Source: Primulina eburnea (Eukaryota; Streptophyta; Magnoliopsida; Lamiales; Gesneriaceae). From it: a stretch of 64,000 bases of DNA. A program made the translations under genes and the position numbers. Positions 22,881-57,200 of this stretch are shown in pieces; position 1 is the stretch's first letter; every line of letters begins with the position of its first letter. The notes below the pieces were generated by a model. The model ran no database searches. It worked only from the letters and a program-made list of their open reading frames with translations, and was not told where the DNA came from. The DNA is taken from the NCBI RefSeq assembly GCF_022965805.1, contig NC_133108.1:44338051-44402050 (forward strand), read 5' to 3'.

Positions 22881-23667
22881 CTACATGCAACTCAACCCTT
22901 TAGCTTCAGATCCTCTCATGATCCTCATCCTTTTGCAGGAAGTAACAAACATATCCCATGGAACATCTCCAACTAGCATCCAATCACCATCCTTGTCTTC
23001 ATAAGTTGGTTCATATTCAGATCCATTGTATCCTTCCCTCTCTGAGTACCCACCTGAAAATATTCACCAAAAACCCATCAATATTTTATTTCACGTGTAC
23101 CCAAATTCCCAAGATGATCAAAAATAAAAATTTCTTTTCGAAACATGTATTAATGTTGGGATACATGAACTGATGATGTGTACGCACCTATGGTGCACTT
23201 GAACATGTTCTCTAAAGCCTTTAATAGATCCAAGTAATTCTTGTACAATTTGAGGTCGATTTTCCTTAAATAAGGAGCCCCATCCATGCTAACTTTCACA
23301 AACATCCCGGAAGCCTCGGATTCAAGCTTCTTGAGGACATTTTTCCGGTATGACTGAACCGGCGGCCAGCCGACAACTTGTGCTCTGAAATCGCAAAGTA
23401 CCCACAGATCAGCACAATAGTTACGTAGATGATCAACATCTATATATATGGGTGTAGAACTTACTTATGAGCTGGGGCACGATCAGATTCTTGCTTTGAT
23501 TCACCATTTAGGCGGGGATCCTCCATTTCTGATGAAGATCTTTTGTTGTTATTGTTCTTAACACAAGATGAAGATTGCTTCTCAGATTCATCGCTTCCAG
23601 GAAGACCCAATCTTAGCTCGGTAGCCTTGAGATTCAGATCATGATCATTTTCCAAAAACCCTTCCAT
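22881..23667 (-). CDS. Aux/IAA auxin-response repressor, IAA1-4-like
   Basis: Exons 23465-23667, 23188-23384 and 22881-23053 (573 nt) encode 190 residues. Domain I is [14 protein letters not shown] at residues 11-24, the degron core VGWPPV is at 72-77, and the PB1 (III/IV) domain contains [16 protein letters not shown] and [16 protein letters not shown], ending [10 protein letters not shown]. Aux/IAA proteins are nuclear repressors that bind ARF transcription factors and are degraded through SCF-TIR1/AFB when auxin is present. The start is the ATG at 23667; the frame is open further upstream but no in-frame ATG is there. The usual late intron inside the VPW-MFV region is absent, so the last exon is fused. 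The introns use AA|GTAAGT and ATAG|GTGCGT donors. The short length and N-terminus resemble the IAA1/2/3/4 group. Confidence 0.95.
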
Positions 23668-23870
23668 TTTTACACAAATCCTGGTCACTTTCTTGATCTT
23701 CTTCTTGAATATACGTGTAAATACCAGATTACTGAGGAAAGTACTTGATGATATAGTGGCGGGCACTAATTTCTTTGCAGGATTAGAGCGAATCTTTCCG
23801 TGTTTAATTAATTCTGAGGACTTTTTTTGAAAGTTGTGAATGGGGCATAAACGTGGCAGAAGAACACAAA

Positions 23871-23878
23871 GTTTTATA
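23871..23878 (-). promoter_or_regulatory. TATA box of the minus-strand Aux/IAA gene
   Basis: TATAAAAC on the minus strand, in context CCTATAAAAC, lies about 205 bp upstream of the ATG at 23667. It is a near-consensus plant TATA box. Confidence 0.6.
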
Positions 23879-27427: not shown

Positions 27428-27934
27428 GACACCCCCCAAATGAAGAATGAACATGTCCTTTGGCTAAGGCATCTTCAAAAGGTTAAGATCCTTTGGCTAA
27501 GGCATCGTCAAAAGGAGCTATTGGGATGAGAAGCCCAAGATCCATAACCCAACTCCAGTTGTGGCTTCGAGTTTTTCCCACGTCAATTTAATGTTATATG
27601 AAAGTTTATCATCCAAATTCATGAACCAAGCTCACCACATGGATTCACCAAATGATCAAAGAAAACCAACACTACAAGAAATTTATTTCAAATCTCTTTT
27701 ATTTGTTTTAAATTTTAGTTATATGAAAGTTAGATATCCCAATTACAATTTTGTAAAGTGGAATTTAACAAAATTTAAATAAAACAAACACAAATTGATT
27801 CATTTTTTAGACCCCTTGCACCAATTTGGCAACACATGCTACAAAAAAACGGATGGATTAGCGACGGATTCTACACCCCCAAATGAAGAATGAACATGTC
27901 CTTTGGCTAAGGCTTCGTCAAAAGGTTAAGATCC
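27428..27934. repeat. Duplicated segment with internal direct repeats
   Basis: AAATGAAGAATGAACATGTC followed by CTTTGGCTAAGGC and TCAAAAGGTTAAGATCC occurs at 27438-27492 and again at 27881-27934. Between them, 27521-27836 (TTGGGATGAGAAGCCCAAGA to CACCAATTTGGCAACACA) is repeated with minor differences at 36331-36611, on the other side of the larger Aux/IAA gene. The left copy carries about 50 extra bp around CACTACAAGAAATTTATTTC (27669-27718). Confidence 0.7.
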
Positions 27935-32600: not shown

Positions 32601-35600
32601 ATAGTTACCACAGTAGCATCGGCATGGCACCGTACGAGGCTCTGTATGGCCGAAAGTGTCGGTCGCCATTATATTGGGACGAAGTTGGAGAAAAAGCAGT
32701 CACAAGACCAGAGTTGATCCAAATCACTATAGAGAAGGTTTCAGTCGTCAAGGAACGCCTCAAAGCAGCCCAAGATCGACAAAAGAGTTGGGCCGACACG
32801 AAGAGACGACCCTTAGATTTTCAAGTTGGCGAAAAAGCATACTTGAAGGTTTCACCAATGCGAGGAGTCTCAAGATTTGACAAAACCGGTAAGCTGAGTC
32901 CAAGATACGTGGGCCCTTTTGAAATTCTAGACAAAGTCGGCACACTTGCATACCGATTAGCTCTACCTCCAAATCTTTCAAGGGTTCACAATGTTTTCCA
33001 TGTGTCACAATTACGAAGATATATATCAGACTCATCCCACATTCTAGAGGCAGAACCCTTAGTGAGTGAAGGGAAACTAAATGAAGATCTAGTGTATGAG
33101 GAAGTCCCAATCCGAATCGTGGACTCGAAAGATCAAGTCCTGAGGCGAAGAACCATCCCTTATGTCAAGGTCCAATGGTCAAATCATACAGCTCGAGAAG
33201 CCACGTGGGAACTTGAGGAGAGGATGCGCCAACTCTACCCATACCTCTTTGCAGATTTCTCGGAACCAAGTTTCGAGGACGAAACTTCTTATAAGGAGGG
33301 AGGGATGTGAGGCCCAAGCCCTGGAGCCCAATTACAACCTTGGCCCAACTTTGCCCTAGGTATATAAAACTTATAACCCTTCACTTTTCACATTCTACAC
33401 TACGTTAAAAAAATATATAATTCTCTCAACTCCCAACTCTCTCAAGTTTTCTTGGAGTCAACTTCGATTTCAAGACTAGCAAAAGATAGTAAGTGGAACG
33501 TATATTTTCCTGATATGTATAATATTTATCTTCATGGTATGTTAAGATTGAATCTATGATGTATTGCATGTTGATCATTTTCAACAAATATTTTTGATAA
33601 TGTCTTGATCTTGTTTGTGACCTTGTCTAGTAGGGTAAACTAGACTCTTACGATCCAGTCTGGGGAGTTAAGCCAGACATTCATGATCCAATCTGGGGAG
33701 TTAAGCCAGATAAATATGATCCGGTCTGGGGAGTTAAGCCAGATATTATGATCCCAACTGGGGAGTTAAACCAGATATTATGATCCAATCTGGGGAGTTA
33801 AGCCAGATATTTGATATTGATTGTTTTATGTTTTAGATCTACTTGTGAATAAGTTTCTAAAGATATGATCTAGTGATAAGACAAATGTTATAATGTTTCT
33901 TTTTAAAACTTGAAGATATGCTCCCTCCAATTACTGAGTGACGACCATATCACTCACCCCTTACATTTTATTTCAGATGAGAATGAGATAGAACAGCAGG
34001 AATCAGCTGAATTTTGGGGATGGTGATTGGGCTAGACAATTTATAATCATTTGTTTTTGAATAAGTTGTGAACATTAGACTTGATCTTCTGTCATTGGTT
34101 TTGTAAGACAATGAATTATTTGAATAAATTCTACTTTGGAATAAGACTGTTGTTTAGGCTTAGTGTTCTTGGTTTATTTAATTATTGAATTTTTAAGAAC
34201 ATTGCCGATGTTCATGCCATGCATCTCGGGGCGTGACATAAACCCAACAAGATTAATTGTGAGAACTCAAGTATATACTCACACGATGCCAATCTTGTAG
34301 GGCCCAGGTCGTGGGATGGCCGCCAGTTCGATCGTTTCGGAAAAATATTATGGTTGTACAGAAGAACTCGGAGGACACTGAGAAGGGAACCACTGTTGCT
34401 GGCGGAGCATCTGTTTTTATCAAAGTAAGCATGGACGGTGCACCGTACCTCCGCAAAGTTGACTTGAAGATGTACAAGGCATATCAAGAGCTATCTGAGG
34501 CATTGTGCAGAATGTTCAGTTCCTTCACCATCGGTAAGTTAATACTTCGTCAAGAAACACAAAATATAACATGGACTCAGGTTTTATTTTTAAGAGTTTA
34601 CAACATTGATTTTCGAAAGTTTTTTGGGATAATAGAACTTTCAAAACTTGGTTATTTAGTCGATAATATTCACACTTACTGATCAATTTAATTATTCAAT
34701 ATCAAACTTCACAAACTAGTGTCGGTCACATTCAAAATATAGCATCGTCTCATTTTGATCTAGAGATGAAATAGCATGATATTGCTCAAGAGGTCCCTTT
34801 TACATGAAAACTTCTGATAGAGTTCAATCTCACGTGAAAAACTTCTAACCCGAACCTTTAAGGGGAAAACTCGAGTAACCTGAAAAAGAACTCATGGTGA
34901 TTTGCTGTAAGTTTTATAACTCCATTTCTATGGCAAATGTGATTCTCAAGGAATGATGGACTTCATGAATGAGAGCAAGCTCGTGGATCTTTTAAATGGT
35001 TCTGATTATGTTCCAACTTATGAAGACAAGGATGGGGACTGGATGCTTGTTGGCGACGTCCCTTGGGAGTAAGTCATCCAAATCTTACTAACTAGTAAAG
35101 AAAACAACGGCTTCATTTCATACTAGTCACAAAATTCTAGACAAAGCCTTATTTGATGCATGTCGACTAGGATGTTCGTTGGATCATGCAAGCGTGTACG
35201 CATTATGAAAGGAACAGAGGCTATAGGACTCGGTTAGTTTCTTCGAAGCTGTGCTGTTATTTTTTATCATGATTTCACCAGTTTTGAATACTTGAGACGC
35301 ACAAAATTTCTAACCTAAATTTCAAAACTAACAATATATTGTGATTCACACATCACCAAGCTATACCATTATCTTAAATGAAAATTACCATCGGGCTCCG
35401 CTGGTCATTAAGTTCCTAACTTTTTATCCAGTACAACATGTACTCTGGTGTATCACCTGTCAAATGATCAGATACAAAAATACTTAAAAACCCATTACCA
35501 CAAAAATTCTTAATTAAAACGCTATTTGTGATCTTGCTATGACTAATGTAAAGATTTGTTCTGTAGACGACTTTCAGACCAAGTGCACATGCAAAACACA

Positions 35601-35845: not shown

Positions 35846-36330
35846 GACTCAATAAATTCAACCACAACTTGCTCGTTCGATCTTTGTGTTTGTATGGTCC
35901 AACAAGGAGAAATCAAAGGACAAAACACACGAGATAGATGGAGCAGGATGCTGGATTGTGTCTGTACTACTACATGTTTGGTTGGTTGTAATATTAATAG
36001 TTTGAAGAATTGTGAAGTATTCATTGTTTTGAACATAAACAAGTACTCCGGTCCCCATTAAGTTTTCTTGTGTGGGCTGCTAAAATCTCAATAATGTGCC
36101 CAATAATGTCAACTTCAGATACCTATCTTGTAGTATATTGAAGTGTATGCTTTCCATTCATTCACTAGTCAATTCATTTTTCCATATTAAAGTGTATGTA
36201 TTTATATTACAGACTTCAATTTTTAAGAGGGTGAGAATAGAAGCAACGTCAGGTGCATAATTAACATATCATTTACTCTCTGCTCCGTTTAGTTGGTTGA
36301 TTGGTTTGCTAATTAATTTGCAAGGAGTTA

Positions 36331-36611
36331 TATGGGATGAGAAGCCCAAGATCCATAACCTAACTCCAGTTGTGGCTTCGAGTTTTTCCCACGTCAATTT
36401 AATGTTATCTGAAAGTTTATCTGCATCCAAATTCATGAACCAAGCACCACATGGATTCACCAAATGATCAAAGAAAACCAAGCACGTCATTAGTTATATG
36501 AAAGTTAGATATCCCAATTACAATTTTGTAAAGTGGAATTTAACCAAATTTAAATAAAGCAAACACAAATTGATTCATCTTCTAGACCCCTTGCACCAAT
36601 TTGGCAACACA
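36331..36611. repeat. Second copy of the duplicated segment at 27521-27836
   Basis: TGGGATGAGAAGCCCAAGAT and the following 280 bp match the upstream copy in the same orientation, with one deletion of about 50 bp. The two copies bracket the plus-strand Aux/IAA gene at a spacing of about 8.8 kb. Confidence 0.75.
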
Positions 36612-38829: not shown

Positions 38830-40480
38830 GCAGCTTGATTCCCAAATGACAAATATTCTACGATCGAGTTTGCAATCACTGTGCATCGGCGTTTCAAGGC
38901 TCTTTGCCATTTTTCCTCAGCATCAGCTGGCTGAAGTGAGTTAAAATGATCAGGATCAGAGGCTGATCATAAATATTCAAGCAAATGATGAGCCAAGCCA
39001 AATGTGCATATAAGCAATATGTTCCTACTTTTCTACTACCGTTCTTTGCGAGACTGTGAGGGGTAGCAGTTTTAACCTGAGGGCTGTGAAAATATGGAAC
39101 TTGAACTCTTTTGGAGCCATCGGTAGGCGTTTCTAAGGATTATGATTTTCTACAGACGAAATTTCTCCATGGGCCTGCATATAGTTCATTCAAGTTACTA
39201 GTGGTGTTTGCCAGCACGGAAAATGAAGGCATCACATCCGAGTTTCAAGAATATGGAATCATTTGTGTTAATTGTCCCATATCGATTGAATAAATAACCT
39301 TTGAGTGATATATATGGGATTGGACAATCCTCCCCCCTTGAGCTAGCTTTTGGGGTTGAGTTAGGTCCAAGTTCCAATCTTAACATGGTATCAGAGCCCG
39401 GGTTTCACCGCCACGCTCCAGATGTTCATTCCTGGGCGTGAGAGGTTGGAATAAATAACCTTTGAGTGATATATATGGGATTGGACAATCCTCCCCCCTT
39501 AAACTAGCTTTTGGGGTTGAGTTAGGTCCAAGTTCCAATCTTAACAATTTGTCAATCAAATTAAAGCTTGTTTCAGAAATTTCACAAACCTTGTACTTTT
39601 GCATGGTCTGACAAGTTAAACATCGGTGTGCAGAATACATCATTGAGAAAGGGGAATTGCGCTAAAACAAAATAAAAAATGTACCAAAAATCTTTTAACG
39701 GACTCATAATGGAGAGACTTGATAAGTTTGGCTTATATACCCGAGTCTCGATGGTTTTAACCAGCTTGCTGGGGTAATCTAATACGTGCACACTTTCTAG
39801 ATCACGGCATTGAAGTAGCAGCCTCTCTGGGATCAAAGACATTAAAGTAGTGAAACTTGTTCAAAGAAACAATTAACTTTCAAAGAGGAGACACCAAGCT
39901 AGCCCTAAAGAATTTAAAAAAATACCCTGGATGTAAAATTCCACAAGAGTTAAGATTCAAGTAACTAAGGTTAGGACAATTCGACCACAAGCCCGCACCA
40001 AAAACCTCTTATTTAGGCCATAAAAAGAAACTCCATGCCAAGAACAAAAATAGAGAAGTTATAGTTGATAGGAACTCAAGTCCAAACCAGAAAAAACCCA
40101 TAATTAAGCTTGGTTTCTTCAACTGGCTTTGCTTGATAATTAGCTTTTGGAGCATAAGGTGATGCTTGCTGTCGTGTGTTCTCTGTAATTCCGTGTCATT
40201 TTCCTCTGTGTTGGTAGATTTTTCAGGATTGGGATCACAGATGGTCATATCGCAGTCCATAAAGATAAGGCAGCTGGGCTGCAGCAAAGTGAATGCCACC
40301 TGTACGTATACAAAAAGCTTGACAATGTACTTAAGAGTCAACCATAAGGGTCTGAAAGAGGGGTATGAGATTACTTGAAAGTGATGATAGGACAAAGAGA
40401 AAGTAGAAGCTTCGACAATGTCTCAGGATAGGCATTGCAGATCATCCCTATCCCAGTATCACTAATGCTAGACCTGCAAA
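38830..40480 (-). pseudogene. Decayed F-box/LRR gene remnant (SLOMO-like)
   Basis: Minus-strand fragments in the expected order resemble the C-terminal leucine-rich repeats of a plant F-box/LRR protein: SSISDTGIGMICNAYPETLS (about 40475-40405), MDCDMTICDPNPEKS and LMLQKLIIKQSQLKKPSL (40395-40110), NCPNLSYLNLNSCGILHP (about 39985-39930), then IPERLLLQCRDLESVHVLDY (39842-39750). The repeat after LKKPSL is out of frame, and only the C-terminal part exists here. A coding-like stretch on the same strand near 38830-38945 (LQPADAEEKWQRALKRR) may or may not belong. F-box/LRR proteins recruit substrates to SCF ubiquitin ligases. The likeness to Arabidopsis SLOW MOTION is from memory and unverified. 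A TRIM element is inserted downstream. Confidence 0.55.
39266..39546 (+). mobile_element. TRIM retroelement with intact 5-bp target duplication
   Basis: LTR1 (39266-39385, TGTTAATTGTCCC to CCAATCTTAACA) is followed at once by TGGTATCAGAGCC, the classic initiator-methionine tRNA primer-binding site. After about 50 bp of internal DNA a 5'-truncated second LTR starts (GAATAAATAACCTTTGAGTG) and ends at 39546 with the same CCAATCTTAACA. ATTTG flanks the element at 39261-39265 and 39547-39551. There is no coding capacity, so it is a terminal-repeat retrotransposon in miniature. The second LTR has lost about 25 bp at its 5' end. Confidence 0.88.
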
Positions 40481-40554
40481 TGAAATCCAGACGGAAAAAC
40501 ACTTTGTGGTCCTCATAATTGTCATTTCATAGTATGTATTTAGTAAATCGCATT

Positions 40555-42078
40555 CACTACAAAAAAACGGATCGCATAGCGACGGTTTTACATAAGCCGT
40601 CGCTAAATGTGCAACGGTTTTCTTTTAACCGTCGCTATATAGCGACGGTTTTAAATAGAACCGTCGCTAAATAAAATAAGCGACGGTTCACTACCACCCG
40701 TCGTTTTTTTAGCGATGGTGTATTGATTACCGTCGCTATTTTTGCAACTGTTTTCTATAAACTGTTGCTAATATTGCGACGGTATCATAAACTGTCGCAA
40801 TTTATTGCGACGATTTTTAATAAAACCGTCGCTATGCAAAACAAGCGACTGTTGACAAAAAACCGTCGTTCGTGTAGCGACGGTTTACGAAATACTGTCG
40901 CTCATTTTGCGACGGTTTACTAAAAACCGTCGCTCATTTAGCGACAGATTCAAAATAACCGTCGCTATTATAGCGACAGTTTAACATAAAATGTCGATAA
41001 TATTGCGATGTTTTAACCGCTAATAAAAATAAGCGACGGTGTTCTAAAAACCGTCGCTTTTTAGCAACGGTTTATAGTCAACCGTCGCTACTGTAACGAC
41101 AGTTTTTTGGACAACTGTCGCTAATATTAGGCGACGGGTTTATACATGTCGCCATGTGCGATGGTATAATGCAACCCGTCGCAATATACGGCAACGAATA
41201 AACATAAACCGTCGCCGATCTCGAACGGCGACGGTTTTGTATGAACCGTCGCCGATCTAGATCGGAGACGGTTTTTGAAGAAGCCGTCGCTATTAGCGAC
41301 GGTTAAAGACCTGTCCGTCGCAACTCGCGACGGTTTTCTCATAGCATGTCGCTATGATTCTATATATACCGAGGTTCGCGAACATTTTACATAAGCGATT
41401 TTCGTCTATCTCTGGTAGTAACGAATCTCTATAAATTTTCCGAAGTTTCGGTTTTTTATTTTGTACTAACTATTTCGTATTTATTTTGTAGATTTGCTAC
41501 TCGATGCGATTTTTCAGCGTTACGTGGAATTGCATGTCTTCGCGCAACATCAGGTTTTAAAGCTTTTTTTTTACAGAAAAATAATACATAATTTTATTTT
41601 TTGCGTAGTAGTTTATTTGTGTCAATTTAATACATTACTTTTTGCGTAAATTTAATATCTTCGCGCACATCAAGTGCGACTTTCATTAAACACCGTCGCT
41701 ATATTAAGCGACGGTTTTTATAAAAAAACCGCCGATTAATATAGCGACGGTTTTTATAAAAAAAACCGCCGATTAATATAGCGACGGTTTTTTAAAAACC
41801 GTCGCTTAATATAGCGACGAAACCGTCGCTTAATATAGCGACGGTGTGTAAAAACCGTCGCTTCATATAGCGACGATGTACTTATAACAGTCGCTTACAT
41901 TAGCGACGGTCGGCATATAAACCGTCGCTAATGAGCGACGGTCTTCTTCAACAAAACCGTCGCTTATAGCGACGGGAGTTGATAAATCGTCGCTTTCAGA
42001 AAGCGACGCTAACTTCTGTTACGGACCGCCAAACCGTCGCTTTTACCTTTTAGCGACGGTTTATTTTTTTTTGTAGTG
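40555..42078. mobile_element. Non-autonomous CACTA-type element with subterminal AGCGACGG repeats
   Basis: The ends are CACTACAAAAAAACGG and its near complement (TTTATTTTTTTTTGTAGTG), as in CACTA (En/Spm) transposons. Flanks are ATT and ATC, a weak 3-bp duplication. Both ends are packed with AGCGACGG and CCGTCGCT motifs in alternating orientation (40575-41355 and 41690-42060), forming dozens of small palindromes like the transposase-binding subterminal repeats of En/Spm. The middle (41360-41690) has a TATATATACCGAGG stretch and a leader-like region with GTAG/AG motifs, possibly the remains of the transposase promoter. No transposase frame exists. Its 40798-41299 segment recurs in the downstream array. 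Confidence 0.75.
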
Positions 42079-42359
42079 ATCGAAATTATTAATGAAGAAT
42101 TTGTGATCAAGTAAACAATCACTTCCACTAGCGACTGAAAAATGCCCACTTAGATCAAGCAAAATGGGAGTACTTGACATACCCAAATTTACCAGTCACG
42201 CGAAATAAAAATGCCAACCTCAAATTAGCAGCTGCAAGAGATAGAACTGAAGCATTTGAAAGCCGAATTGAAGTGAAACAATGTGGATATTTTTAAAGAC
42301 TTATACTTAAATTAAATTTACATATCCACGAGGTTCGAAAGTTTCCATACTTGATTTTA
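42079..42359. other. Spacer between CACTA element and array
   Basis: Unique AT-rich sequence with no gene. It separates the intact mini-transposon from the first promoter copy. Confidence 0.5.
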
Positions 42360-45300
42360 GTTAAATTACGTGGTTGAAAGACTTGTATTTTAAATTAAAT
42401 TTAATATCTTTTCGATGATATTTGTCATTCTCGTTCTAGAACTTTTAAATTGAACACTTTCCCAATTATAATGGATAAATATCATATTTTTGAAAAAGTA
42501 AAATAGTGATTATTTTTGTCTCAATCATCCAAAAACAATATATTTATGCTCTCGTTCCAAATATTTATTTATTATATTTTTCTCGAAAGGATAAAAAAAT
42601 TAGTTACATATTTTAAAAAAATTAATAAAATAAATTAAATAATTTTGCAAAATAAAATAGTGTATTTAATTTAATTTATAGATGATTATTAGATTTAAAT
42701 ATAATTTAAATCATTAATGAAATTGATTTTTTAATTTCATCATATATCGATTTATAATAATTCACATATATATTAAATCATTTTAGTAATTTATGTACAA
42801 GTTATCAATTTATCAAACGTAGTATACCAAAAATAATTTTATTCCTAGATAATATTTTTTTCAAAACAAATTAACAATTTATTTCTTAAGCATCTAAATT
42901 TCGTCCCATCTCTCCCTCACTTCACTACATCTAAACCCTAGCTTGAGAGCCGCCGCTTCTGTTCTTCTCGGCAATTTGACCTACGGTAAGTACTTAGGTT
43001 CGTATTCATCGATGTCAAGTTTACTATTTTGTATCCGTCGTAATCATGTATTTTAATTTGTGAAGTCGGGGCGCTTGATGTTGTAGATGATGATTTTTGA
43101 AATTTTAAATCTGAAAACGGGTTATTAGTACGTACGTGATTGTGTTACCTAGCCTTGTTTCTGTGTTTCCTGGTATTAAATTAGAATTTTAGGTGAAAAA
43201 TGTAATTTTTTCGTTCAATCTGAATCATGAAGGTGCAATTTATTGCGACGATTTTTAATAAAACAGTCGCTATGCAAAACAAGCGATGGTTGACAAAAAA
43301 CTGTCGCTCCTGTAGCGACGGTTTACGAAACATCGTCGTTCATTTTACGACTGTTTACTAAAAACCGTCGCTCATTTAGCGACAGATTCAAAATAATCGT
43401 CGCTATTGTATCGACAGTTTAACATAAATTGTCGTTAATATTGCGATGTTTTAACCGCTAATAAAAATAAGCGACGGTGTTCTAAAAACCGTCGCTTTTT
43501 AGCAACGGTTTATAGTCAACCGTCGCTACTGTAACGACGGTTTTTTGGACAACTGTCGCTAATATTAGGCGACGGGTTTGTACCTGTCGCCATGTGCGAC
43601 GGTATAATACAACCCGTCGCAATATACGGCGACGAATAAACATAAACCGTCGCCAATCGGCGACGGTGTTTGAAGAAGTCGTCGTTATTAGCGAAGTTGT
43701 GTACAACTTATCAATTTATCAAACTTAGTATACCAACAATAATTTTATTCCTAGATAATATTTTTTTTCAAAACAAATTAACAATTTATTTCTTAAGCAT
43801 CTAAATTTCGTCTCATCTCTCCCTCACTTTACTACATTTAAACCCTAGCTTGAGAGCCGCCGCTTCTATTGTTCTCGGCAATTTGACCTACAATTTGACC
43901 TACGGTAAGTACTTAGGTTCGTATTCATCGATGTCAAGTTTACTAATTTGTATCCCTCGTAATCATGTATTTTAATTTGTGAAGTCGTGGCGCTGATTGT
44001 TGTAGATGATGATTTTTGAAATTTTAAAACTCGTGAGCTGAAAACGGGTTATTAGTACGTTTGTGAAGTCGGGGCGCTTGATGTTGTAGATGATGATTTT
44101 TGAAATTTTAAAACTCGTGAGCTGAAAACGGGTTATTAGTACGTACGTGATTGTGTTACCTAGCCTTGTTTCTCTGTTTCCTGGTATTAACTTAGAATTT
44201 TGCGTGAAAAATGTAATTTTTTCGTTCAATCTGAATCATGAAGTTGCAATTGATTGCGACGATTTTTAATAAAAGCGTCGCTATGCAAAACAAGCGACGG
44301 TTGACAAAAAACCGTCGTTCCTGTAGCGACGGTTTACGAAACAGCGATGCGACGGTTTACTAAAAATCGTCGCTCATTTAGCGACAGATTTTGAAATAAG
44401 CGACGGTGTTCTAAAAACCGTCGCTACTGTAACGACGGTTTTTTGGACAATTGTCGCTAGTATTGGGCGACGGGTTTGTACCTGTCGCCATGTGGTCGGT
44501 ATAATACAACCCGACGCAATATACGACGACGAATAAACATAGCTTGATGTTATCGAATAAACATAGCTTCATAAACATATATTAGCGAATTTATGTACAA
44601 GTTATCAATTTATCAAACTTAGTATACCAAAAATAATTTTATTTTTAGATAATATTTTTTTCAAAACAAATTAACAATTTTTCTTAAGCATCTAAATTTC
44701 GTCACATCTCTCCCTCACTTCACTACATCTAAACCCTAGCTTGAGAGCCGTTGCTTCTGTTCTTCTCGGCAATTTGACCTACGGTAAGTACTTAGGTTCG
44801 TATTCATCGGTGCCAAGTTTACTATTTTGTATCCGTCGTAATAATGTATTTTAATTTGTGAAGTCGGGGCGCTTGATGTCGTAGATGATGATTTTTGAAA
44901 TTTTAAAACTCGTGAGCTGAAAACGGGTTATAAATATGTACGTGATTGTGTTATCTAGCCTTGTTTCTGTGTTTCCTGGTATTAACTTAGAATTTTGCGT
45001 GAAAAATGTAATTTTTTCGTTCAATCTGAATCATGAAGGTGCAATTTATTGTGACGCTTTTTAATAAAACCGTCGCTATGCAAAACAAGCGACGGTTGAC
45101 AAAAAACCGTCGCTACTTTAGCGACGGTTTACGAAACACCGTCTCTCATTTTGCAACGGTTTACTAAAAATAGTCGCTCATTTAGCGACAGATTCAAAAT
45201 AACCGTCGCCATTGTAGCGACAATTTAACAAAAATTGTCGCTAATATTGCGACGTTTTAATCGCTAATAAAAATAAGCAACGGTGTTCTAAAAACCGTCG

Positions 45301-48300
45301 CTTTTTAGCAACGGTTTATATTCAACCCTCGCTACTGTAACGACGGTTTTTTTTTACAACTGTCGCTAGTATTAGGCGACGGGTTTGTACCTGTCGCCAT
45401 GTGCGACGGTATAATACAACCCGTCGCAATATACGACGACGATTCGGCGACGGTTTTTATAAACCGTCGCAGATCGGCGACGGTTTTTGAAGAAGCCGTC
45501 GCTATTAGCGAATTTATGTACAAGTTATCCATTTATCAAACTTAGTATACCAAAAATAATTTTATTCCTAGATAATATTTTTTTCAAAACAAATTAACAA
45601 TTTATTTCTGAAGCATCTAAATTTCGTCCCATCTCTCCCTCACTTCACTACATCTAAACCCTAGCTTGAGAGCCGCCGCTTCTGTTCTTCTCGGCAATTT
45701 GACCTACAATTTGACCTACGGTAAGTACTTAGGTTCGTATTCATCGGTGTCAAGTTTACTACTTTGTATCAGTCGTAATCATGTATTTTAATTTGTGAAG
45801 TCGGGGCGCTGATTGTTGTAGATGATGATTTTTGAAATTTTAAAACTCGTGAGCTGAAAACGGGTTATTAGTACGTACGTGATTGTGTTACCAAGCCTTG
45901 TTTCTATGTTTCCTGGTATTAACTTAGAATTTTGCGTGAAAAATGTAATTTTTTCGTTCAATCTGAATCATGAAGGTGCAACGGTTTACGAAACACCGTC
46001 GCTCATTTTGCAACGGTTTACTAAAAACCGTTGCTCATTTATCGACAAATTCCAAATAACGTCGCTATTGTAGCGACAGTTTAACATAAACTGTCGCTAA
46101 TATTGCGACGTTTTAACCGCTATAAAAAATAAGCGACGGTGTTCTAAGAACCGTCGCTTTTTAGCAACGGTTTATAGTCAACCGTCACTACTGTAACGAC
46201 GGTTTTTTGGACAACTGTCGCTAGTATTAGGCGACGGGTTTGTACATGTCGCCATGTGCGACGGTATAATACAACCCGTCGCAATATACGGCGACGAATA
46301 AACATAAACCGTCGCCGTTCGTCGACGGTTTTTGAAGAAACCGTCACTATTAGCGAATTTATTTACAAGTTATCAATTTGTCAACTTATTATACCAAAAA
46401 TAATTTTATTCCTAGATAATATTTTTTTCAAAACAAATTAACAATTTATTTCTTAAGCATCTAAATTTCGTCACATCTCTCCCTCACTTCACTACATCTA
46501 AACCCTAGCTTGAGAGCCGCCGCTTCTGTTCTTCTCGACAATTTGACCTACGGTAAATACTTAGGTTCGTATTCATCGGTGTTAAGTTTACTATTTTGTA
46601 TCCGTCGTAATCAAATATTTTAATTTGTGAAGTCGGGGAGCTTGATGTTGTAGATGATGATTTTTGAAATTTTACAACTCGTGAGCTGAAAACGGGTTAT
46701 TAGTACGTACGTGATTGTGTTACCTAGCCTTGTTTCTGTGTTTCCTGGTATTAAGTTAGAATTTTGCGTGAAAAATGTAATTTTTTCGTTCAATCTGAAT
46801 CATGAAGGTGCAATTTATTGCGACGATTTTTAATAAAATCGTCGCTATGCAAAACAAGCGACGGTTGACAAAAAACCGTCGCTCCTGTAGCGACGGTTTA
46901 CGAAACACCGTCGCTCATTTTGCGACGGTTTACTAAAAACCGTCGCTCATTTAGCGACAGATTCCAAATAACGTCGCTATTGTAGCGACCGTTTAACATA
47001 AACTGTCGCTAATATTGCGACGTTTTAACCGCTATTAAAAATAAGCGACGGTGTTCTAAAAACAGTCGCTTTTTAGCAACAGTTTATAGTCAACCGTCAC
47101 TACTGTAACGACGGTTTTTTGGACAATTGTCGCTAGTATTAGGCGACGGGTTTGTACATGTCGCCATGTGCGACGGTATAATACAACTCGTCGCAATATA
47201 CGGCGACGAATAAACATAAACCGTCGCCGTTCGTCGACGGTTTTTGAAGAAACCGTCGCTATTAGCGAATTTATTTACAAGTTATCAATTTATCAGCTTA
47301 TTATACCAAAAATAATATTATTCCTAGATAATATTTTTTTCAAAACAAATTAACAATTTATTTCTTAAGCATCTAAATTTCGTCACATCTCTCCCTCACT
47401 TCACTACGTCTAAACCCTAGCTTGAGAGCCGCCGCTTCTTTTGTTCTCGACAATTTGACCTACGGTAAGTACTTAGGTTCGTATTCATCGGTGCCAAGTT
47501 TACTATTTTGTATCCGTCGTAATAATGTATTTTAATTTGTGAAGTCGGGGCGCTTGATGTCGTAGATGATGATTTTTGAAATTTTAAAACTCGTGAGCTG
47601 AAAACGGGTTATAAATATGTTCGTGATTGTTTTATCTAGCCTTGTTTCTGTGTTTCCTGGTATTAACTTAGAATTTTGCGTGAAAAATGTAATTTTTTCG
47701 TTCAATCTGAATCATGAAGGTGCAATTTATTGCGACGATTTTTAATAAAACCGTCGCTATGCAAAACAAGCGACGGTTGACAAAAAACCGTCGCTCCTGT
47801 AGCGACGGTTTACGAAACACCATCGCTCATTTTGCGACGGTTTACTAAAAACCGTCACTCATTTAGCGACATATTCCAAATAACGTCGCTATTGTAGCGA
47901 CAGTTTAACATAAAATGTCGCTAATATTGCGACGTTTTAACCGCTAATAAAAATTAGCGACGGTGTTCTAAAAACCGTCGCTTTTTAGCCACGGTTTTTA
48001 GTCAACCGTCACTACTGTAACGACGGTTTTTTGCACAACTGTCGCTAGTATTAGGCGAAGGGTTTGCACATGTTGCCATGTGCGACGGTATAATACAACC
48101 CGTCGCAATATACGGCGACGAATAAACATAAACCGTCGCCGTTCGTCGACGGTTTTTGAAGAAACCTTCGCTATTAGCGAATTTATTTACAAGTTATCAA
48201 TTTATCAACTTAGTATACCAAAAATAATTTTACTCTTAGATAATATTTTTTTCAAAACAAATTAACAATTTATTTCTTAAGCATCTAAATTTCGTCACAT

Positions 48301-50821
48301 CTCTCCCTCACTTCACTACATCTAAACCCTAGCTTGAGAGCCGCCGCTTCTGTTCTTCTCGACAATTTGACATACGGTAAGTACTTAGGTTCGTATTCAT
48401 CAGTGTCAAGTTTACTATTTTGTACCCGTCGTAATCATGTATTTTAATTTGTGAAGTCGGGGCGCTTGATGTTGTAGATGATGATTTTTGAAATTTTAAA
48501 ACTCGTGAGCTGAAAAAGGGTTATTAATATGTAAGTGATTGTGTTATCTAGCCTTGTTTATGTGTTTCCTGGTATTAACTTAGAATTTTGCCTGAAAAAT
48601 GTAATTTTTTTGTTCAATCTGAATCATGAAGGTGCAATTTATTGCGACGATTTTTAATAAAACCGTCGCTATGCAAAACAAGCGATGGTTGACAAAAAAC
48701 CGTTGCTCCTGTAGAGACGATTTACGAAACACCGTCGCTCATTTTGCGACAGTTTACTAAAAACCGTCGCTCATTTTGCGACAGATTCAAAATAACCGTC
48801 GCTATTATAGCGAAAATTTAACATAATTTGTTGCCAATATTGCGACGTTTTAACCGCTAATAAAAATAAGCAACAGTGTTCTAAAAACCGTCGCTTTTTA
48901 GCAACGATTTATAGTCAACCGTCACTACCGTAACGACGGTTTTTTGGACAACTGTCGCTAGTATTCGGCGACGAGTTTGTACCTGTCGCCATGTGCGACG
49001 GTATAATACAACCCGTCGCAATATACGGCGACGAATAAACATAAACCGTCGCCGATCTCGAACGGCAACGGTTTTGTATAAACCCTCGCAAATCGGCGAC
49101 GGTTTTTGAAGAAGCCATCGCTATTAGCGAATTTATGTACAAGTTATCCATTTATCAAACTTAGTATACCAAAAATAATTTTATTCCTAGATAATATTTT
49201 TTTCAAACCAAATTAACAATTTATTTCTTAAGCATCTAAATTTCGTCTCATCTCTCCCTCACTTCACTACATCTAAACCCTAGCTTCAGAGCCGCCGCTT
49301 CTGTTCTTCTCGGCAATTTGACTTACGGTAAGTACTTAGGTTCGTATTCATCGGTGTCAAGTTTACTATTTTGTATCCGTCGTAATCAAATATTTTAATT
49401 TGTAAAGTCGGGGAGCTTGATGTTGTAGATGATGATTTTTGAAATTTTACAACTCGTGAGCTGAAAACGGGTTATTAGTACGTACGTGATTGTGTTACCT
49501 AGCCTTGTTTCTGTGTTTCCTGGTATTAACTTAGAATTTTCGTGAAAAATGTAATTTTTTCGTTCAATCTGAATCATGAAGGTGCAATTTATTGCGACGA
49601 TTTTTAATAAAACCGTCGCTATGCAAAACCAGCGACGGTTGACAAAAAACCGTCGCTCCTGTAGCGACGGTTTACGAAACACCGTCGCTCATTTTGCGAC
49701 GGTTTACCTTTAGCGACAGATTCAAAATAACAGTCGCTATTGTAGCGATGGTTTAATACAAACTGTCGCTAATATTGTGACGTTTTAACCGCTAATAAAA
49801 TTAAGAGACGGTGTTCTAAAAACCGTCGCTTTTTAACAACGGTTTATAGTCAACCGTCGCTACTGTAAGGACGGTTTTTTGGACAAATATCGCAAATATT
49901 AGGCGACGGGATTGTACCGGTCGCAATGTGCGACGGTATAATGGAACCCGTCGCAATATATGGCGACGAATTTATCGCCCGATCTCGAACAGGGCGACGG
50001 TTGTGACAGGCGTCGCTTTTAGCGACGGAACTTACTGTATAAACCGTCGCCGATCTTGGTCGGCGACGGTTTTTGAGATGCGGTCGCTATTCGCGACGGT
50101 TATTGTCCTGTCTGTCGCAACTCGCTACGGTTTTCTCGTAGCCGTCGCTATTATTCTTTATATACCGAGGTTCGCGAACATTTTACATAAGCGATTTTCG
50201 TCTATCTCTGGTGGTAACGAATCTATAAATTTTTCCAAGTTTCGCTTTTTTATGTTATACTAACTATTTCATATTTATTTTGTAGATTTGCTACTCGGTG
50301 TGATTTTTCAGCGTGAAATTGCAAGTCTTCGCGCAACATCAGGTTTTAAATCTTTTTTTACAGAAAATTTAATACATAATTTTAATTTTTGTTAAATTAC
50401 GTGGTTGAAAGACTTGTACTTTAAATTAAATTTAATATCTTTTCGATGATATTTGTCATTCTCGATCTAGAACTTTTAAATTGAACACTTTCCCAATTAT
50501 AATGGATAAATATCATATTTTTGAAAAAGTAAAATAATGATTATGTTTGTCTCAATCATCCAAAAACAATATATTTATGCTCTCGTTACAAATATTTATT
50601 TATTATATTTTTCTCGATAGGATAAAAATAATTAGTTACATATTTTTAAAAAATTAATAAAATAAATTAAATAATTTTGCTAATAAAATAGTGTATTTAA
50701 TTGAATTTATAGATGATTATTAGATTTAAATATAATTTAAATCATTAACGAAATTGATTTTTTAATTTCATCATATATATCGATTTATAAATAATTGATA
50801 TATATATTAAATCATTTTAGT
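42360..50821 (+). repeat. Tandem array of chimeric promoter-leader/CACTA units
   Basis: Head-to-tail units alternate two parts. Part P (about 450 bp, starting AATTTATGTACAAGTTATCA) carries the promoter-proximal region, a leader exon with CTAAACCCTAGCTTGAGAGC and a donor CTACG|GTAAGT, and the start of an intron ending GAATCATGAAGGTGCA. Part T (about 460-500 bp) is the CACTA subterminal segment equal to 40798-41299. P copies start near 42788, 43694, 44588, 45511, 46356, 47268, 48180 and 49130, and the ninth, native one at 50822. Spacings between the AACCCTAG motifs are 907, 891, 925, 844, 912, 912, 951 and 1668 bp. The first and last P copies also have about 430 bp of further upstream promoter (from 42360 and 50391). 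The last T segment runs on to about 50390, equal to 41640 of the intact element. Unit 2 has an internal 80-bp duplication near 44030-44110 and a shortened T; unit 4 has a shortened T. Confidence 0.9.
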
Positions 50822-51298
50822 AATTTATGTACAAGTTATCAATTTATCAAACTTAGTATACCAAAAATAATTTTATTCCTAGATAATATTTTTTTTCAAA
50901 ATAAATTAACAATTTATTTCTTAAGATCACTTCACTACATCTAAACCCTAGCTTGAGAGCCGCCGCTTTTGTTCTTCTCGGCAATTTGACCTACGGTAAG
51001 TATTTAGGTTCGTATTCATCGCTGTCAAGTTTACTATTTTGTATACGTCGTAATCATGTATTTTAATTTGTGAAGTCGGGGTACGTATGTGATTGTGTTA
51101 CCTAGCCTTGTTTCTATGTTTCCTGGTATTAACTTAGAGTTTTGCGTGAAAAAAGTAATTTTTTCGTTCAATCTTAATCATGAAGGTGCACAACATCGAA
51201 TTATATTTATTGGAGTTATTTCTATCTGTTTGCATTAGTATCTTAGTGTTTGACTTTTTTTTTGACTTAGCTGGATTGGATCTGTTGGCGCATTTTTT
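50391..51298 (+). promoter_or_regulatory. Native promoter and 5' leader of the UTP18-like gene
   Basis: This is the ninth copy of the array's P sequence and the only one joined to the coding exon. The leader exon contains a telo-box (AAACCCTA at 50943-50950), an element common upstream of ribosomal-protein and ribosome-biogenesis genes. The leader intron runs from CTACG|GTAAGT (exon end 50995) to a pyrimidine-rich acceptor TTTTTGACTTAG|CTGG (exon start 51271). The ATG is at 51299. Confidence 0.7.
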
Positions 51299-53011
51299 AT
51301 GACGAGTTTGATTTCTCAAAACACTGTTCCCAAGGAGTCAACCAAGAAAAAGAAGAAGAGGGATAAAGATGAGGTTACATTTGCTCAAGCAGAGGAAGAA
51401 AGGTTTGAAGGTGGTCAAGAACTTGATTTGGATGTTACAAAGAATCAGAAGAGAAAACGTGGGAGAAAGGAAAAAGATGGCACAACGGAAATTGAACAGG
51501 AGAAGGAAATGAAGAAGCTGGAGAATTGTTTGTTTGGCTCCTTGTTCTCACCTCTTGAATTTGGGAAGGACGGTGAAGAAGAAGGCGGAGATGGGGTCGA
51601 CAATGGCTCCACATTGTTTTTTACTGACAGGTCTGCGAATTGTGTGTTGTCTGTGTATGAAGAGGATGTGGAGATGAGTAAAAGAGGTGTTGAGGGAGGA
51701 GAGGGAAACAAGCAAAGAAAACCTGTTTGGGTGGATGAAGAGGAGGAGAAAATTACTGTAGATATATCTAAAGTTAACAGATTGCGCAAACTAAGGAAGG
51801 AAGAGAATGAAAGTGTGATTTCTGGATCTGCATACATAGCAAGATTGAGAGCGCAGCATGTTAAAATGAATCCAGGTACTGATTGGGCACGACCCAATGC
51901 ACAGCTGAGAGATTATAGCTCTGATGATGATTCGGGTAAAGAAAGTGGGGTGGTGATGGCAAGTGGTTACGAGGATCCTGAAGATATTGATAATATCCTG
52001 AGAACAAATGGAGATCTTGTTGTAAAGCGGGGTATGAAACTATTACCTGGCCTTCTCGAGTACTCGAAACTGATAGATGCAAATGTGAAGGATCCTTCGA
52101 AAGCTCCAATAAATTCCGTTCAGTTCCACAATAACGCACAGTTGCTGCTTGTTGGTGGATTGGATCGGAAATTAAATTTCTTTCAAATTGATGGAAAGAA
52201 GAATGAAAAGATCCAAAGCATATTCCTTGAAGACTGTCCAATCAGAAATGCCTCTTTTTTACCCGATGGATCTCAGGTTATCATATCGGGAAGAAGAAAG
52301 TTTGCTTATAGCTTTGATTTAATCAAGGCCAGGGTGGATAAAATAGGCCCTCTCACGGGAAGGGAGGAGAAAAGCTTGGAGTCATTTGAAGTTTCCCCTG
52401 ATTCAAATATCATTGCTTTTCTTGGCCATGAAGGGTATATCTTATTAGTTTCATCCAAGACCAAGGAACTCATCGGAACCCTGAAAATGAATGGAACTGT
52501 TCGATCAGTAGCATTCACTAAAGATGGACAGCGATTGCTCAGTTCTGGTGGTGATGGCCGGATTTACCACTGGGATGTAAGAACTATGTCTTGCTTTCAT
52601 ATAGGTATAGATGAAGGTTGCATAAATGGTTCAGCTCTGTGTACTTCCCCAGTTGGAAATTTGTTTGCTGCTGGTTCAGATAGTGGTATCGTTAATGTTT
52701 ATGATAGAAATGAATTCTTGGGTTCGAAGAAGAAACCACTCAAAGCAATAGAGAACTTGACAACTAAGGTTGATTTTGTGAAATTTAACCCCGATGCCCA
52801 AATTCTTGCTATCAGCTCTAGAATGAAGAAGAACAGCTTGAAGCTGATTCATGTTCCATCATTCACTGTTTTCTCAAACTGGCCTCCATCAAACAGGACG
52901 TTGCAGTATCCAACCTGTATGGACTTCAGTCCGCATGGGGGTTTTATGGCAATGGGTAATGCTGCTGGAAAAGTGCTGTTGTACAAGCTGCATCACTACC
53001 ACCAGGCATGA
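51299..53011 (+). CDS. UTP18: U3 snoRNA-associated protein 18 (UTP18-like), WD40 protein
   Basis: A single coding exon of 570 residues. The N-terminal third is highly charged (KKKKKRDKDE, KRKRGRKEKDG) with acidic tracts and an LFGSLFSPLEFG motif. A middle segment (PVWVDEEEEKITVDISKVNR, then YIARLRAQHVKMNPGTDWA) is typical of UTP18. The rest, from about residue 255, is a WD40 propeller with SVQFHNNAQLLLVGGLDRKL, SVAFTKDGQRLLSSGGDGRI and YHWDV. UTP18 belongs to the t-UTP/UtpB part of the small-subunit processome and acts in nucleolar 18S pre-rRNA processing. It is intact. The unusual feature lies upstream: its promoter and leader are amplified nine times with CACTA fragments. Confidence 0.95.
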   Translation: MTSLISQNTVPKESTKKKKKRDKDEVTFAQAEEERFEGGQELDLDVTKNQKRKRGRKEKDGTTEIEQEKEMKKLENCLFGSLFSPLEFGKDGEEEGGDGVDNGSTLFFTDRSANCVLSVYEEDVEMSKRGVEGGEGNKQRKPVWVDEEEEKITVDISKVNRLRKLRKEENESVISGSAYIARLRAQHVKMNPGTDWARPNAQLRDYSSDDDSGKESGVVMASGYEDPEDIDNILRTNGDLVVKRGMKLLPGLLEYSKLIDANVKDPSKAPINSVQFHNNAQLLLVGGLDRKLNFFQIDGKKNEKIQSIFLEDCPIRNASFLPDGSQVIISGRRKFAYSFDLIKARVDKIGPLTGREEKSLESFEVSPDSNIIAFLGHEGYILLVSSKTKELIGTLKMNGTVRSVAFTKDGQRLLSSGGDGRIYHWDVRTMSCFHIGIDEGCINGSALCTSPVGNLFAAGSDSGIVNVYDRNEFLGSKKKPLKAIENLTTKVDFVKFNPDAQILAISSRMKKNSLKLIHVPSFTVFSNWPPSNRTLQYPTCMDFSPHGGFMAMGNAAGKVLLYKLHHYHQA

Positions 53012-54241
53012 TATATTTGGCGGTTGTCGTTCGAACGAGTTTTAATTTTTGTAGGAAGGGTTTTTGCTAGTAATTTATATGGATTCCGAAAATGCTACCT
53101 CTTCGAGGTGGTTATCCTTGAAATGTTTTTATTTCCTTGAGTATTCAGAAAATGCTACGGTTCTTTGAAATGATAGTACTTTTACTGATACTTGCCAGAA
53201 GGGTTGATCTTGAAATCGTGATATGTTTCATCCCATCTCATTACTTTGAATTCAGTTCAAAGTGGATATTTATGTATTCATGGCTTGCCAACTATTCAAA
53301 TTTCAATCGTGTGCATAACCTGAGAACTTTAACTATGTATTTCCACTCTGAAAACTGCTGTGGTCCGAATATATATAAAGTCAAAAACATACAAGCAGCA
53401 ACTTGATTGCTTCTTAACCAGGGACGTGCTCGTCCCTTCCACTCAGACACATTTGATAGGCACGCCATCTCATAACCGCCCGCCCAATGATGGACCGATT
53501 CCCCAACCTTAGACCAGCCGACCTCATATGGGTTATTTGAACAGTTTGCTTTGGGTTTCGAAGTCTCGACTCTTGACCTCCGAATTCTCGATAGCCTGCA
53601 TAGGATAAGCCTGATCCTGTACCCAAGCAAAAAAGTGAGGGCCTAAAACCGATCTGTTGATGAAATCATACTGCCTCAAGAACTTCACATGACATCTCAC
53701 CTCTATCTTTGAACATCCTATATAATCCCTATATATTATAAGTGTTTTAATTATGATAATTATTAAAAAAGAACATTATATTATGAAATCAACACACAAA
53801 TTTTTTCTGACATCTTTTTATATCTAAATTAGTTTCAGAGTTTTTTCAGAAATTTTAAAACTAGTCTGTTTAATAAAGTTTTTAAAATTTTTGAAAAGAA
53901 TAAATAGAAAGGATAATGATAAATATAACATTGTGTATAAATTGTTCGAATCCAAATTAATAAAATTAATTGTAACTAATTATTTACTAATGAATAATTA
54001 ATAGCGCGATGACATATGAGGATCCACATTACACAACATAGAGGAAGGATAGTACCACCAAATTTTGGCATGTTATGGCTAAAATAAATTCAACGTTAAA
54101 AATATGTTACACCCGATTAAAATATATTGTTAAACAAGGAGTGGAAATTTACATTAAAATTGCTTTAAAAAATGAGAAACAAATATGCATAAAAAATGTG
54201 ACGCTTACAAAATTTCATACATGAAACTTCTGATTCCCGAC
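53012..54241. other. Intergenic DNA with a GC-rich repeat-like island
   Basis: The 3' flank of the UTP18-like gene. At 53400-53645 a GC-richer block (minus strand GGTCAAGAGTCGAGACTTCG, AATCGGTCCATCATTGGGCG) is unlike its surroundings and gives overlapping ORFs in two frames. It may be a transposon fragment but was not identified. The rest is AT-rich. Confidence 0.4.
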
Positions 54242-57200
54242 CTAGTTATTTGTGGATATGCAACTTTGAAGGAAAGGATGCTCATACTTGACGTGTTTTT
54301 TCCAGAAGAGCTTGTACTTCTCAAGCCCGATATCTAACCATGGCTTCAAGTTTCCATCATAATGTATGACCGCAGCCTGCTCTATGTCCTCCTGCCTCAC
54401 ATTGGAGTCACAACCCAACCCGAGCAGCTGCCATTTCTTATTTAAAGGAACTGTATGTCCATAGAACGTGATCCATCCAATGGGCAAGCTTCCTGCTTTC
54501 CACAATGGCCGATCATTGCCCTGTGAAACGATGTTAATATGTTAAACTTTGTGAACGCCATTGTATTAAAGATTGAGACAGGAAGCAAGCGACCGGGTGC
54601 AGGTCCAAATTTTCTAAAGATGGGGATGAGGTGGGGTACGTGAAAAGATTTTGGAGGGCTAACAATTGCAGTTTAAGAAAAAGTGCACATAAAATTTCAA
54701 ATTTTCTGTCTGGTCGACTTTCTATGACATCTTCCCCTGGTAGTAAGTATTATCTACTCACCAATCGAAGGTACTTGTGATAAACTTGGGTTAAACTTCG
54801 TTGTCTCCATTGTTGTAGATCGAACAGGTTCATCCCAAAGGCCCACGTGCATGTGTTGGCATCAAATCTGTTTGCTAGTATGGGGTCTGTGAAATTGATG
54901 AACATATCCATACGGCGGAATGAAGGCTCCCCTTCATCGCATGTGCGAACAGCACCGTTTACCCTGCCTCGCATTTTCATGCTCCAGAGTTTTGTTAAAT
55001 CTTTTCTCACCACCACATCGTGATCAAGAAGGACGATCTTATTCAAATGAGGAAAAATATCTGGTAAATAAAATCGAAGGTGGTTCAGCTCAGAAGTGTA
55101 TCGTTGATCAACAGAAGCTTCCTTCTTCGTGGTTACATCGTATTTGGTTGATAACCATTGAAAACTGTCTGCGCTCTCAACATGGACGGTAGCTTTGCCG
55201 GGAGGATTTGATAAGAACCACATTGACAAAGATGGGAAGTTAAGCGAATCTGTCACTATATGAAATACTATTCTTCCGGGTTCCTGTCAAGTAAAGAAAA
55301 TTTGGTTGCATTATAGTATCAGATTCATATGCATGACTGAGAAGCAACATCGAGCCATTACTAATAACCCAAGACACCAATAAGCGCTAAACTACTTTGC
55401 TGTCACCATCACTTGTTTTCGTGACATTAAGGTTTTGCAGAGCATTCAAATAGTATTTAAAGTATAGTGCATAAACAAAATATAAATGCTTTATATATAT
55501 TTTATTTTTGCACAAAATGTATTCTAATCAAAATAGCATCAAACCTTCAATTTTTTGAGAAAAAAAACTATCATCATTTTTCTCAAAAATAAAAATACCT
55601 ATCATCATGGTAGTCAAGTTACTCGGCTCAAGTCTCAACTAATGAATCCCTTTACCAATGAAGTAGTTAAGCGAAGGAATAATATATATAACATGGTTAG
55701 TGGTTATTTTTAAAAAATAAAGAAAATATAAAGACAGAGAAACAATAGAAAAAACCGGATATCCTTCTTAGATTAAAAGTTATATTTCCCTGTATAATTT
55801 TACAATCAACATGCCATTAAAGATTTTAGTCATGTTACACAGAAGAATTTAAAATTAGAAGAGAGAAGCATGCCCAAAACTATTAGATCTTCCAATTAGA
55901 CTCTTCCCTTAATTCCAAATTTTCTCCATAACCAGAACATTCCCAATTTTTTTTCAATTAAATTTGCTCAAAGTTTTGAATGAATAATAGGAAAGAAAAT
56001 GGAAACATGTGTCACCAGGAAGAAAGAGCAGCAAAGCAGACCACTTACCCTAGCCATCGAAACAGTTGAGTTCACAACAACTGAACAAGCCAATATATTG
56101 TCAGAGAAAACAGCGAAGTGATAAAGATCAGGATCTTGTCGTTTACGTTTGTTAGGGAACTCCCTCTCCTCGGGTTCCAAAGCATAATATTCAGCAGTCA
56201 ATCTCATAGAAAGGCAGTGAAGACCTTTAGGGATGGTTCTTCCACCAAGTTCTTTAAGAAAATTTTCTTGAGTCCGGTGTGTCCTGACCTGCTCTTCAGC
56301 ATTATATGTCATAGCACGAAGTTTTTTCACCATAGCAGTGCAATCAGGGTATATACGACTAGCTTTCAACAAAGTAGAATCCATGGCTTTCATTTTCTGT
56401 AAAGCACTGAAGAAGCAGTCTTAATTTATCTTTAACCTTAATGAATTTTCATAGAACAGTAGCTTGTTAGTCCACCAAGTTAAAACCTATTATATATAAT
56501 TCCATGGAGTGAAATATCATAATAAAACTAACATATAATTTGGTTTATTTATCAGTATAGAAGTTGCTGTTTTAGCTTTTCTGCAAGAGCCTCGAGAGAA
56601 AGCACTAACAAGCCAAATATACTATCAATTGACTAAATATTAAAATCTTTTCCAGGATAAATAAGGGAGATCAAAACACCAAGCCAATTTAATGGAGATC
56701 TAGAAAAATAAGGAAATAATAGCAATCGCCTTTAAATATGAGGTTTGAGATCTTGAAACTGGTTTAATACATGACCAACTGACTATAAATGGATTGCCAG
56801 AAAACAACCATTCTAAAACTACAACTAACATCCAATTCTTGGAAAATGAAAGGCAAAATTTTGTTTGGTATATTAGAACTATAAAATGTTTACCAAGCCA
56901 TCCAACATCACTTACAAGTTTTCTGAACGATAGTAGTGGCTATCATACATAACAATGAATGTTGCTTGTCACTATCGCAAATCAAGTTATTTCACTCAAC
57001 TATAAAAAGCTCTTTTGGCATGGATGAAATGTAAAGACTGAGGAAAATGCTATACCTTCGAGACACACGGTAATCTTTAGTGCATTGACTCATGGCTCGC
57101 TGAACATCTTTAATTCGAAGTTTCAATTCTTTCACAAAATGAGAACTGCCATTTGCCGGTGAAAAATTTAAGTATGCTTTGGCCTTAACCACCTGGTCTT

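Follow-up and report, generated by a model that had tools for sequence, protein, structure and literature searches.

A nine-copy tandem array of a putative promoter and leader, interspersed with CACTA fragments, upstream of a UTP18 gene

Nine direct, head-to-tail copies of a promoter-side segment, together with a telo-box leader and a 5' splice donor, were found at positions 42351-51190 of the 64-kb stretch of DNA analysed here (hereafter the window). Eight fragments of a CACTA element intervene between the nine copies, and a single UTP18 coding exon (51299-53011) lies downstream. We propose that the array probably arose by a local, non-transpositional tandem duplication that was later expanded, and that it now persists as a mild, mostly neutral cis-regulatory passenger of the gene. 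It offers a natural case, readable in the sequence, of a housekeeping-type promoter region present nine times before one gene with a piece of transposable element in each unit, and it would constitute a stepwise record of how a duplication adjacent to such an element can expand to a small array with no need for transposition. The number of copies may differ between plants; if it does, the locus would provide a natural allele series for amplification, interference or silencing by repeated promoters.

Consistent with the prediction of the sequence-only reading, comparison of the window with itself displayed a direct-repeat block at 42.35-51.19 kb. Many self-matches in the array had an E-value printed as 0.0, and their length and number indicate that they are not due to chance. 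The telo-box word AAACCCTAG has nine exact occurrences on the plus strand of the window and none on the minus strand, all of them inside the array (positions 42933, 43840, 44731, 45656, 46500, 47412, 48324, 49275 and 50943), which upholds the nine copies first proposed; the eight CACTA separators that had been claimed were likewise found between them. The successive spacings of this word are 907, 891, 925, 844, 912, 912, 951 and 1668 bp, so that the unit size of 0.84-0.95 kb given initially describes the first seven spacings (844-951 bp) but not the last unit, which measures 1.67 kb. Similarly, the promoter-proximal region had been described as repeated throughout: this holds for the nine leader copies, but 0.44 kb of sequence further upstream (42351-42787 in copy 1) is present only in copies 1 and 9, and copies 2-8 begin at the equivalent of about 42788.

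Each unit opens with about 0.1 kb of upstream DNA. A pyrimidine-rich tract, the telo box, an ATG-less leader, the donor, the start of the intron and a CACTA piece then follow in this order; the leader-intron piece amounts to about 0.25 kb and the CACTA piece to 0.33-0.49 kb, or 0.79 kb in the last unit. The terms "promoter" and "leader exon", like all the transcript features mentioned below, are deduced from the sequence. All copies and fragments are on the plus strand. Copy 1 (42351-43238) encloses the full upstream region, the telo-box leader, a donor at 42986 and the start of the leader intron, and is followed by CACTA fragment 1 (43239-43693). Copy 2 (43694-44249) carries a 12-bp duplication in its leader and an 84-bp duplication in its intron; fragment 2 (44250-44579), which comes next, is rearranged and has internal deletions. 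After copy 3 (44580-45044) and fragment 3 (45045-45510), copy 4 (45511-45981) has the same 12-bp leader duplication as copy 2, and the left end of fragment 4 (45982-46355) is 80 bp shorter. Copy 5 (46356-46813) and fragment 5 (46814-47267), copy 6 (47268-47725) and fragment 6 (47726-48179), and copy 7 (48180-48637) and fragment 7 (48638-49129) then succeed one another, and copy 8 (49130-49587) precedes fragment 8 (49588-50381), the longest one. Finally, the gene-proximal copy 9 (50382-51190) again includes the full upstream region, with a donor at 50996, but 25 bp are missing from its pyrimidine-rich leader region and 65 bp from its intron. The telo box is present in all nine copies and the donor GTAAGT is intact in eight; copy 5 alone reads GTAAAT (within 46500-46560), which makes it a handy marker for transcript tests. 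No ATG occurs within the last 113-125 nt preceding any of the nine donors. A search for site II motifs (TGGGCY or its complement) gave no occurrence in 42080-51300.

The gene behind the array is UTP18, as had been suggested. Its uninterrupted coding exon (51299-53011, plus strand) encodes a WD40 protein of 570 aa that matches solved UTP18 chains of the PDB (7mq8_LS, E 5.7e-93; 5wlc_LS, E 1.8e-61) as well as named plant UTP18 homologues. Among the best 120 of 687 matches, the best named relatives are the proteins of Henckelia pumila (90% identity) and Dorcoceras hygrometricum (87% identity), both Gesneriaceae. The single-copy end of the leader intron (51191-51270, plus strand) finishes with a putative acceptor AG at 51269-51270, following a T tract and just ahead of the ATG; it is the sole acceptor that we identified. 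The predicted leader intron would measure about 0.27 kb from copy 9 and about 1.9-8.3 kb from copies 8 to 1, these lengths being computed to 51268 and hence 2 nt short. Transcripts of copies 1-8 spliced solely at the last donor would hold 19-93 upstream ATGs. More speculatively, the telo box (CCCTAG) follows a pyrimidine tract, and its AG could serve as a cryptic acceptor that would turn leader copies into small exons.

The intact CACTA relative that had been noticed upstream corresponds to an element of 1.5 kb, here called E0 (40555-42078, plus strand), which ends 0.27 kb before copy 1 and has the same orientation. We characterised it by reading its ends and flanks and by counting motifs. It has CACTA-type terminal inverted repeats of 13 bp, with CACTACAAAAAAA at either end (40555 and 42078), and its flanking triplets (ATT/ATC), with two of three bases in common, may represent an imperfect 3-bp target duplication. 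Dense subterminal repeats of ACCGTCGC/GCGACGGT were also found, with 56 sites (at most one mismatch) in E0 versus 14 in the 50 kb of the window outside 40001-54000. As no ORF of at least 150 aa, and in this sense no transposase gene, was detected in 40555-42078, E0 was classified as a non-autonomous derivative. It is separated from copy 1 by a single-copy spacer (42079-42350), whose only match within 42080-51400 is to itself. The intron breakpoint is common to all eight intron-to-CACTA junctions, and the CACTA start base is identical in seven of the eight fragments, the exception being fragment 4, which starts 80 bp further in. Fragment 7 retains most of a 43-bp stretch of E0 that is missing from fragments 1 and 3-6, and fragment 8 reaches E0 position about 41603. 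Fragment 8 also has, at 49960-50035, extra CACTA-like sequence that is not in E0 at that place; either E0 would have lost it or fragment 8 would come from another source.

Other repeats and genes were recorded elsewhere in the window. A pair of 98-bp direct repeats (39288-39546, 98% identical, 161 bp from start to start) lies about 1 kb upstream of E0, and a 0.16-kb repeat pair (27512-27672 and 36322-36485, 94% identity, 8.8 kb apart) is perhaps a small transposon. A broken retroelement (30944-33310) is preserved in separate ORFs, one of which (30944-32074) encodes an aspartyl protease and a zinc knuckle (PF08284, PF00098) and another (32453-33310) a Tf2-1-like SH3 domain (PF24626); a further ORF (31945-32499) lies between these two scanned ones. 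Just upstream of this relic is a near-perfect inverted repeat (30151-30747, with arms of 239 bp at 30151-30389 and 30509-30747, 99%), in the region of which a 123-bp tandem pair (30386-30631, 97%) was observed. A 32-bp minisatellite occupies 33648-33815 (5.2 copies, 86% matches). Downstream of UTP18, a glycosyltransferase family 8 exon (PF01501) is located on the minus strand (54753-55286), and a plus-strand ORF at 1850-2485 has a DUF4378 domain (PF14309). The minus-strand ORF at 23461-23928 has no Pfam match at 0.001 and includes an LRLGLPG stretch, which we take to be typical of Aux/IAA proteins. The window contains no Rfam family at the gathering threshold and no tRNA gene.

The left edge of the array suggests how promoter and CACTA sequence came to be paired. 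There, CACTA, spacer, promoter, leader and intron follow one another in the same order and the same orientation as in the array, so that a plain tandem duplication across both neighbours explains the pairing. The special joint satellite of promoter and CACTA sequence that had been envisaged at first is therefore superfluous. According to the scenario that the junctions suggest to us, the UTP18 promoter region would have had a non-autonomous CACTA element 0.27 kb upstream of it, and a replication or end-joining error at a 3-bp microhomology (GCA) would have linked the intron (43238) to the CACTA interior (about 40800). The segment duplicated in this way would have comprised the right part of the CACTA element, the spacer, the promoter and the leader. 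Deletions would then have trimmed this segment to a unit of 0.9 kb that no longer had the right end of the CACTA element, the spacer or the upstream promoter region. Finally, unequal exchange and conversion between units would have produced the nine copies and spread variants among non-neighbouring units.

Several observations bear on these steps. At the intron-to-CACTA junction, GCA is indeed present in both parent sequences, although 3 bp are weak evidence alone. Two of the three CACTA breakpoints fall in perfect 7-bp palindrome arms, and such arms cover 35% of E0. The CACTA-to-promoter junction exists in two forms, a longer one (E0 41603 to 42351) found only before copy 9 and a shorter one (about 41298 to 42788) found before copies 2-8, the rearranged fragment 2 being the one that precedes copy 3. 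Together with the stretch retained in fragment 7, these two forms make up a series of nested deletions, the pattern that stepwise loss would be expected to leave. A 1-bp deletion is common to copies 5-7 and another to fragments 4-6, each directly left of those copies, which fits a recent joint amplification of three neighbouring units. Other variants are shared across intervening units (copies 2 and 4, 3 and 6, 5 and 8), and this fits exchange or conversion. In the trees of the two halves, copies 3 and 6, copies 5 and 8, and fragments 4-6 group together; however, strong support was reached by none of the core tree's six inner branches and by one of five in the CACTA tree (computed without fragment 2), so that the trees settle little.

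The divergence values complicate the simplest version of this history. A single duplication should give E0 and fragment 8 the same age as copies 1 and 9, but the former pair is 8.6-9.8% different (12.1% in the multiple alignment) and the latter 3.2-4.1%, which argues against this simplest reading. In the multiple alignment, fragment 8 differs from the other seven fragments by 10.5-18.8%, and the distance from E0 is 6.2-8.8% for fragments 1 and 3-7 and 15.8% for the rearranged fragment 2. Fragment 8 may come from a second CACTA source. Considering fragments and left-hand copies 1, 3, 5, 6 and 7 (that is, without fragments 2, 4 and 8 and copies 2, 4, 8 and 9), diversity is 7.4% in the CACTA half versus 4.5% in the promoter half (p=0.0014); when CpG columns are set aside, the respective values are 6.0% and 3.6% (p=0.012), these p values resulting from site permutation, which ignores shared descent. 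The gap is smaller when the right-hand copies (2, 4, 6, 7 and 8) are used, with 5.3% in the promoter half and, outside CpG, 4.7% against 6.0% for the CACTA half. The CACTA-half excess would fit a higher mutation rate of the transposable element or more frequent conversion in the promoter half, and the lower promoter divergence could also stem from weak constraint over the whole core. Within the core, non-CpG diversity among copies 1-8 (copy 9 being left out) amounts to 4.6% for the upstream part, 4.5% for the leader and 3.8% for the intron piece. Neither the leader nor the upstream part was thus better conserved than the intron among these copies, in what is a weak test on short segments, and this argues against selection for nine working promoters.

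As for function, UTP18 is most likely driven mainly by the gene-proximal copies, and the upstream copies may start transcription. Since nine similar donors face one acceptor, many RNAs from upstream copies would be unproductive. Three roles had been suggested at first, in which the array may serve as a promoter amplifier, as a transposase-binding platform or as a source of hairpin small RNAs. We consider it doubtful that the array works as a promoter amplifier, in which most or all of the nine copies would fire and each donor would join the single acceptor, yielding more UTP18 with an unchanged protein. The telo box in nine of nine copies, the canonical donor in eight, the ATG-free 113-125 nt before every donor and the acceptor-like site just before the ATG are all in keeping with such activity, as is the activation of a minimal promoter by the maize b1 repeats described in the available part of PMC3798267. 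However, conservation is no higher in the leader and upstream part than in the intron, the introns of copies 8 to 1 would span about 1.9-8.3 kb with donors in competition, and the rice IPA1 repeats had no enhancer activity in the reporter test covered by the available part of PMC5364388.

It is also rather unlikely, in our opinion, that the array forms an epigenetic switch in which, by analogy with Arabidopsis FWA and maize b1, CACTA pieces and repeats would attract small RNAs and DNA methylation and generate silencing-prone or metastable UTP18 alleles. UTP18 is probably required in every cell, which would lead to selection against silencing. In addition, the CpG observed/expected ratio is still 2.2-2.5 in the CACTA fragments versus 0.96 in the window, indicating no strong loss by deamination. 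On the side of a switch, fragment 1 (the one of eight fragments folded) folds far better than its shuffles (z -13), whereas promoter unit 6 (the one of nine copies folded) does no better than shuffles (z 0.5); the strong hairpin potential is there because the CACTA subterminal repeats bring it. The FWA and b1 precedents, as far as the available parts of their reports go, point the same way, and tandem regulatory elements introduced as transgenes are described as prone to RdDM in the available part of PMC11500991.

We give little credence to a selected promoter array, in which the copy number of the promoter-leader-CACTA unit would set the dose of a ribosome-assembly factor, the CACTA pieces would serve as spacers or protein-binding boundaries, and a damaged proximal promoter would cede control to upstream copies. 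Production of the tandem copies by the transposase, through alternative (reversed-ends) transposition of CACTA ends, appears very improbable. A CACTA element does stand at the left edge of the array, and Ac/Ds ends yield tandem direct duplications in maize (available part of PMC3744419), but no junction is at an element terminus. Indeed, the CACTA breakpoints (about 40800, 41298 and 41603, with 40880 in fragment 4) are all inside 40555-42078, and the array junctions show no element termini with a target duplication, so this explanation was rejected. Misassembly is frequent at tandem arrays, but a simple assembly error seems scarcely believable here, as the eight units differ pairwise by 3.8-12.5% (an array that is not brand new, as had been stated from the outset) and the longest exact direct repeat inside the array is 170 bp, so that ordinary long reads would place the units uniquely.

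Repeated promoters are found in the intergenic spacers of rDNA, where spacer promoters stand ahead of the gene promoter as they do in the UTP18 array; unlike the latter, these spacers belong to RNA polymerase I genes, contain no CACTA sequence and form a concerted family. Word searches of open-licence papers yielded, by title or start of abstract, no UTP18 array of this kind. The initial statement that no such system had been described was nevertheless too strong, because FWA, maize b1 and rice IPA1 are close precedents, none of which is a CACTA-promoter array in the available parts of the reports cited below. The Arabidopsis FWA gene combines, over its promoter and start site, sequence related to a transposable element with tandem duplications, the number of which varies among species and accessions (available part of PMC3431836). 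As described there, FWA has its start site within the SINE region and only a few repeats, whereas the UTP18 array involves the gene's own promoter, a neighbouring CACTA element and nine copies. At maize b1, too, a single gene has an array in cis. Its seven direct repeats resemble ours in unit size (853 bp) and in number, and they influence expression as well as heritable silencing; according to the available part of PMC3798267, they are located about 100 kb upstream and are termed non-coding tandem repeats, whereas the UTP18 array abuts its gene and has the gene's leader in each copy. In rice, the ipa1-2D allele likewise has a tandem array upstream of a single gene, IPA1, in surroundings rich in transposable elements, but this array consists of three repeats, in an interval about 4 kb upstream and apparently outside the promoter and leader, and is accompanied by lower promoter methylation (available part of PMC5364388). 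The duplications generated by reversed Ac/Ds ends resemble the present case as tandem direct duplications beside a DNA transposon, but differ by having element ends and target duplications at their junctions (available part of PMC3744419), where the UTP18 array has no element end. What sets the UTP18 array apart from these systems is that the leader and donor of the gene itself recur in each copy, and that a CACTA piece separates one copy from the next.
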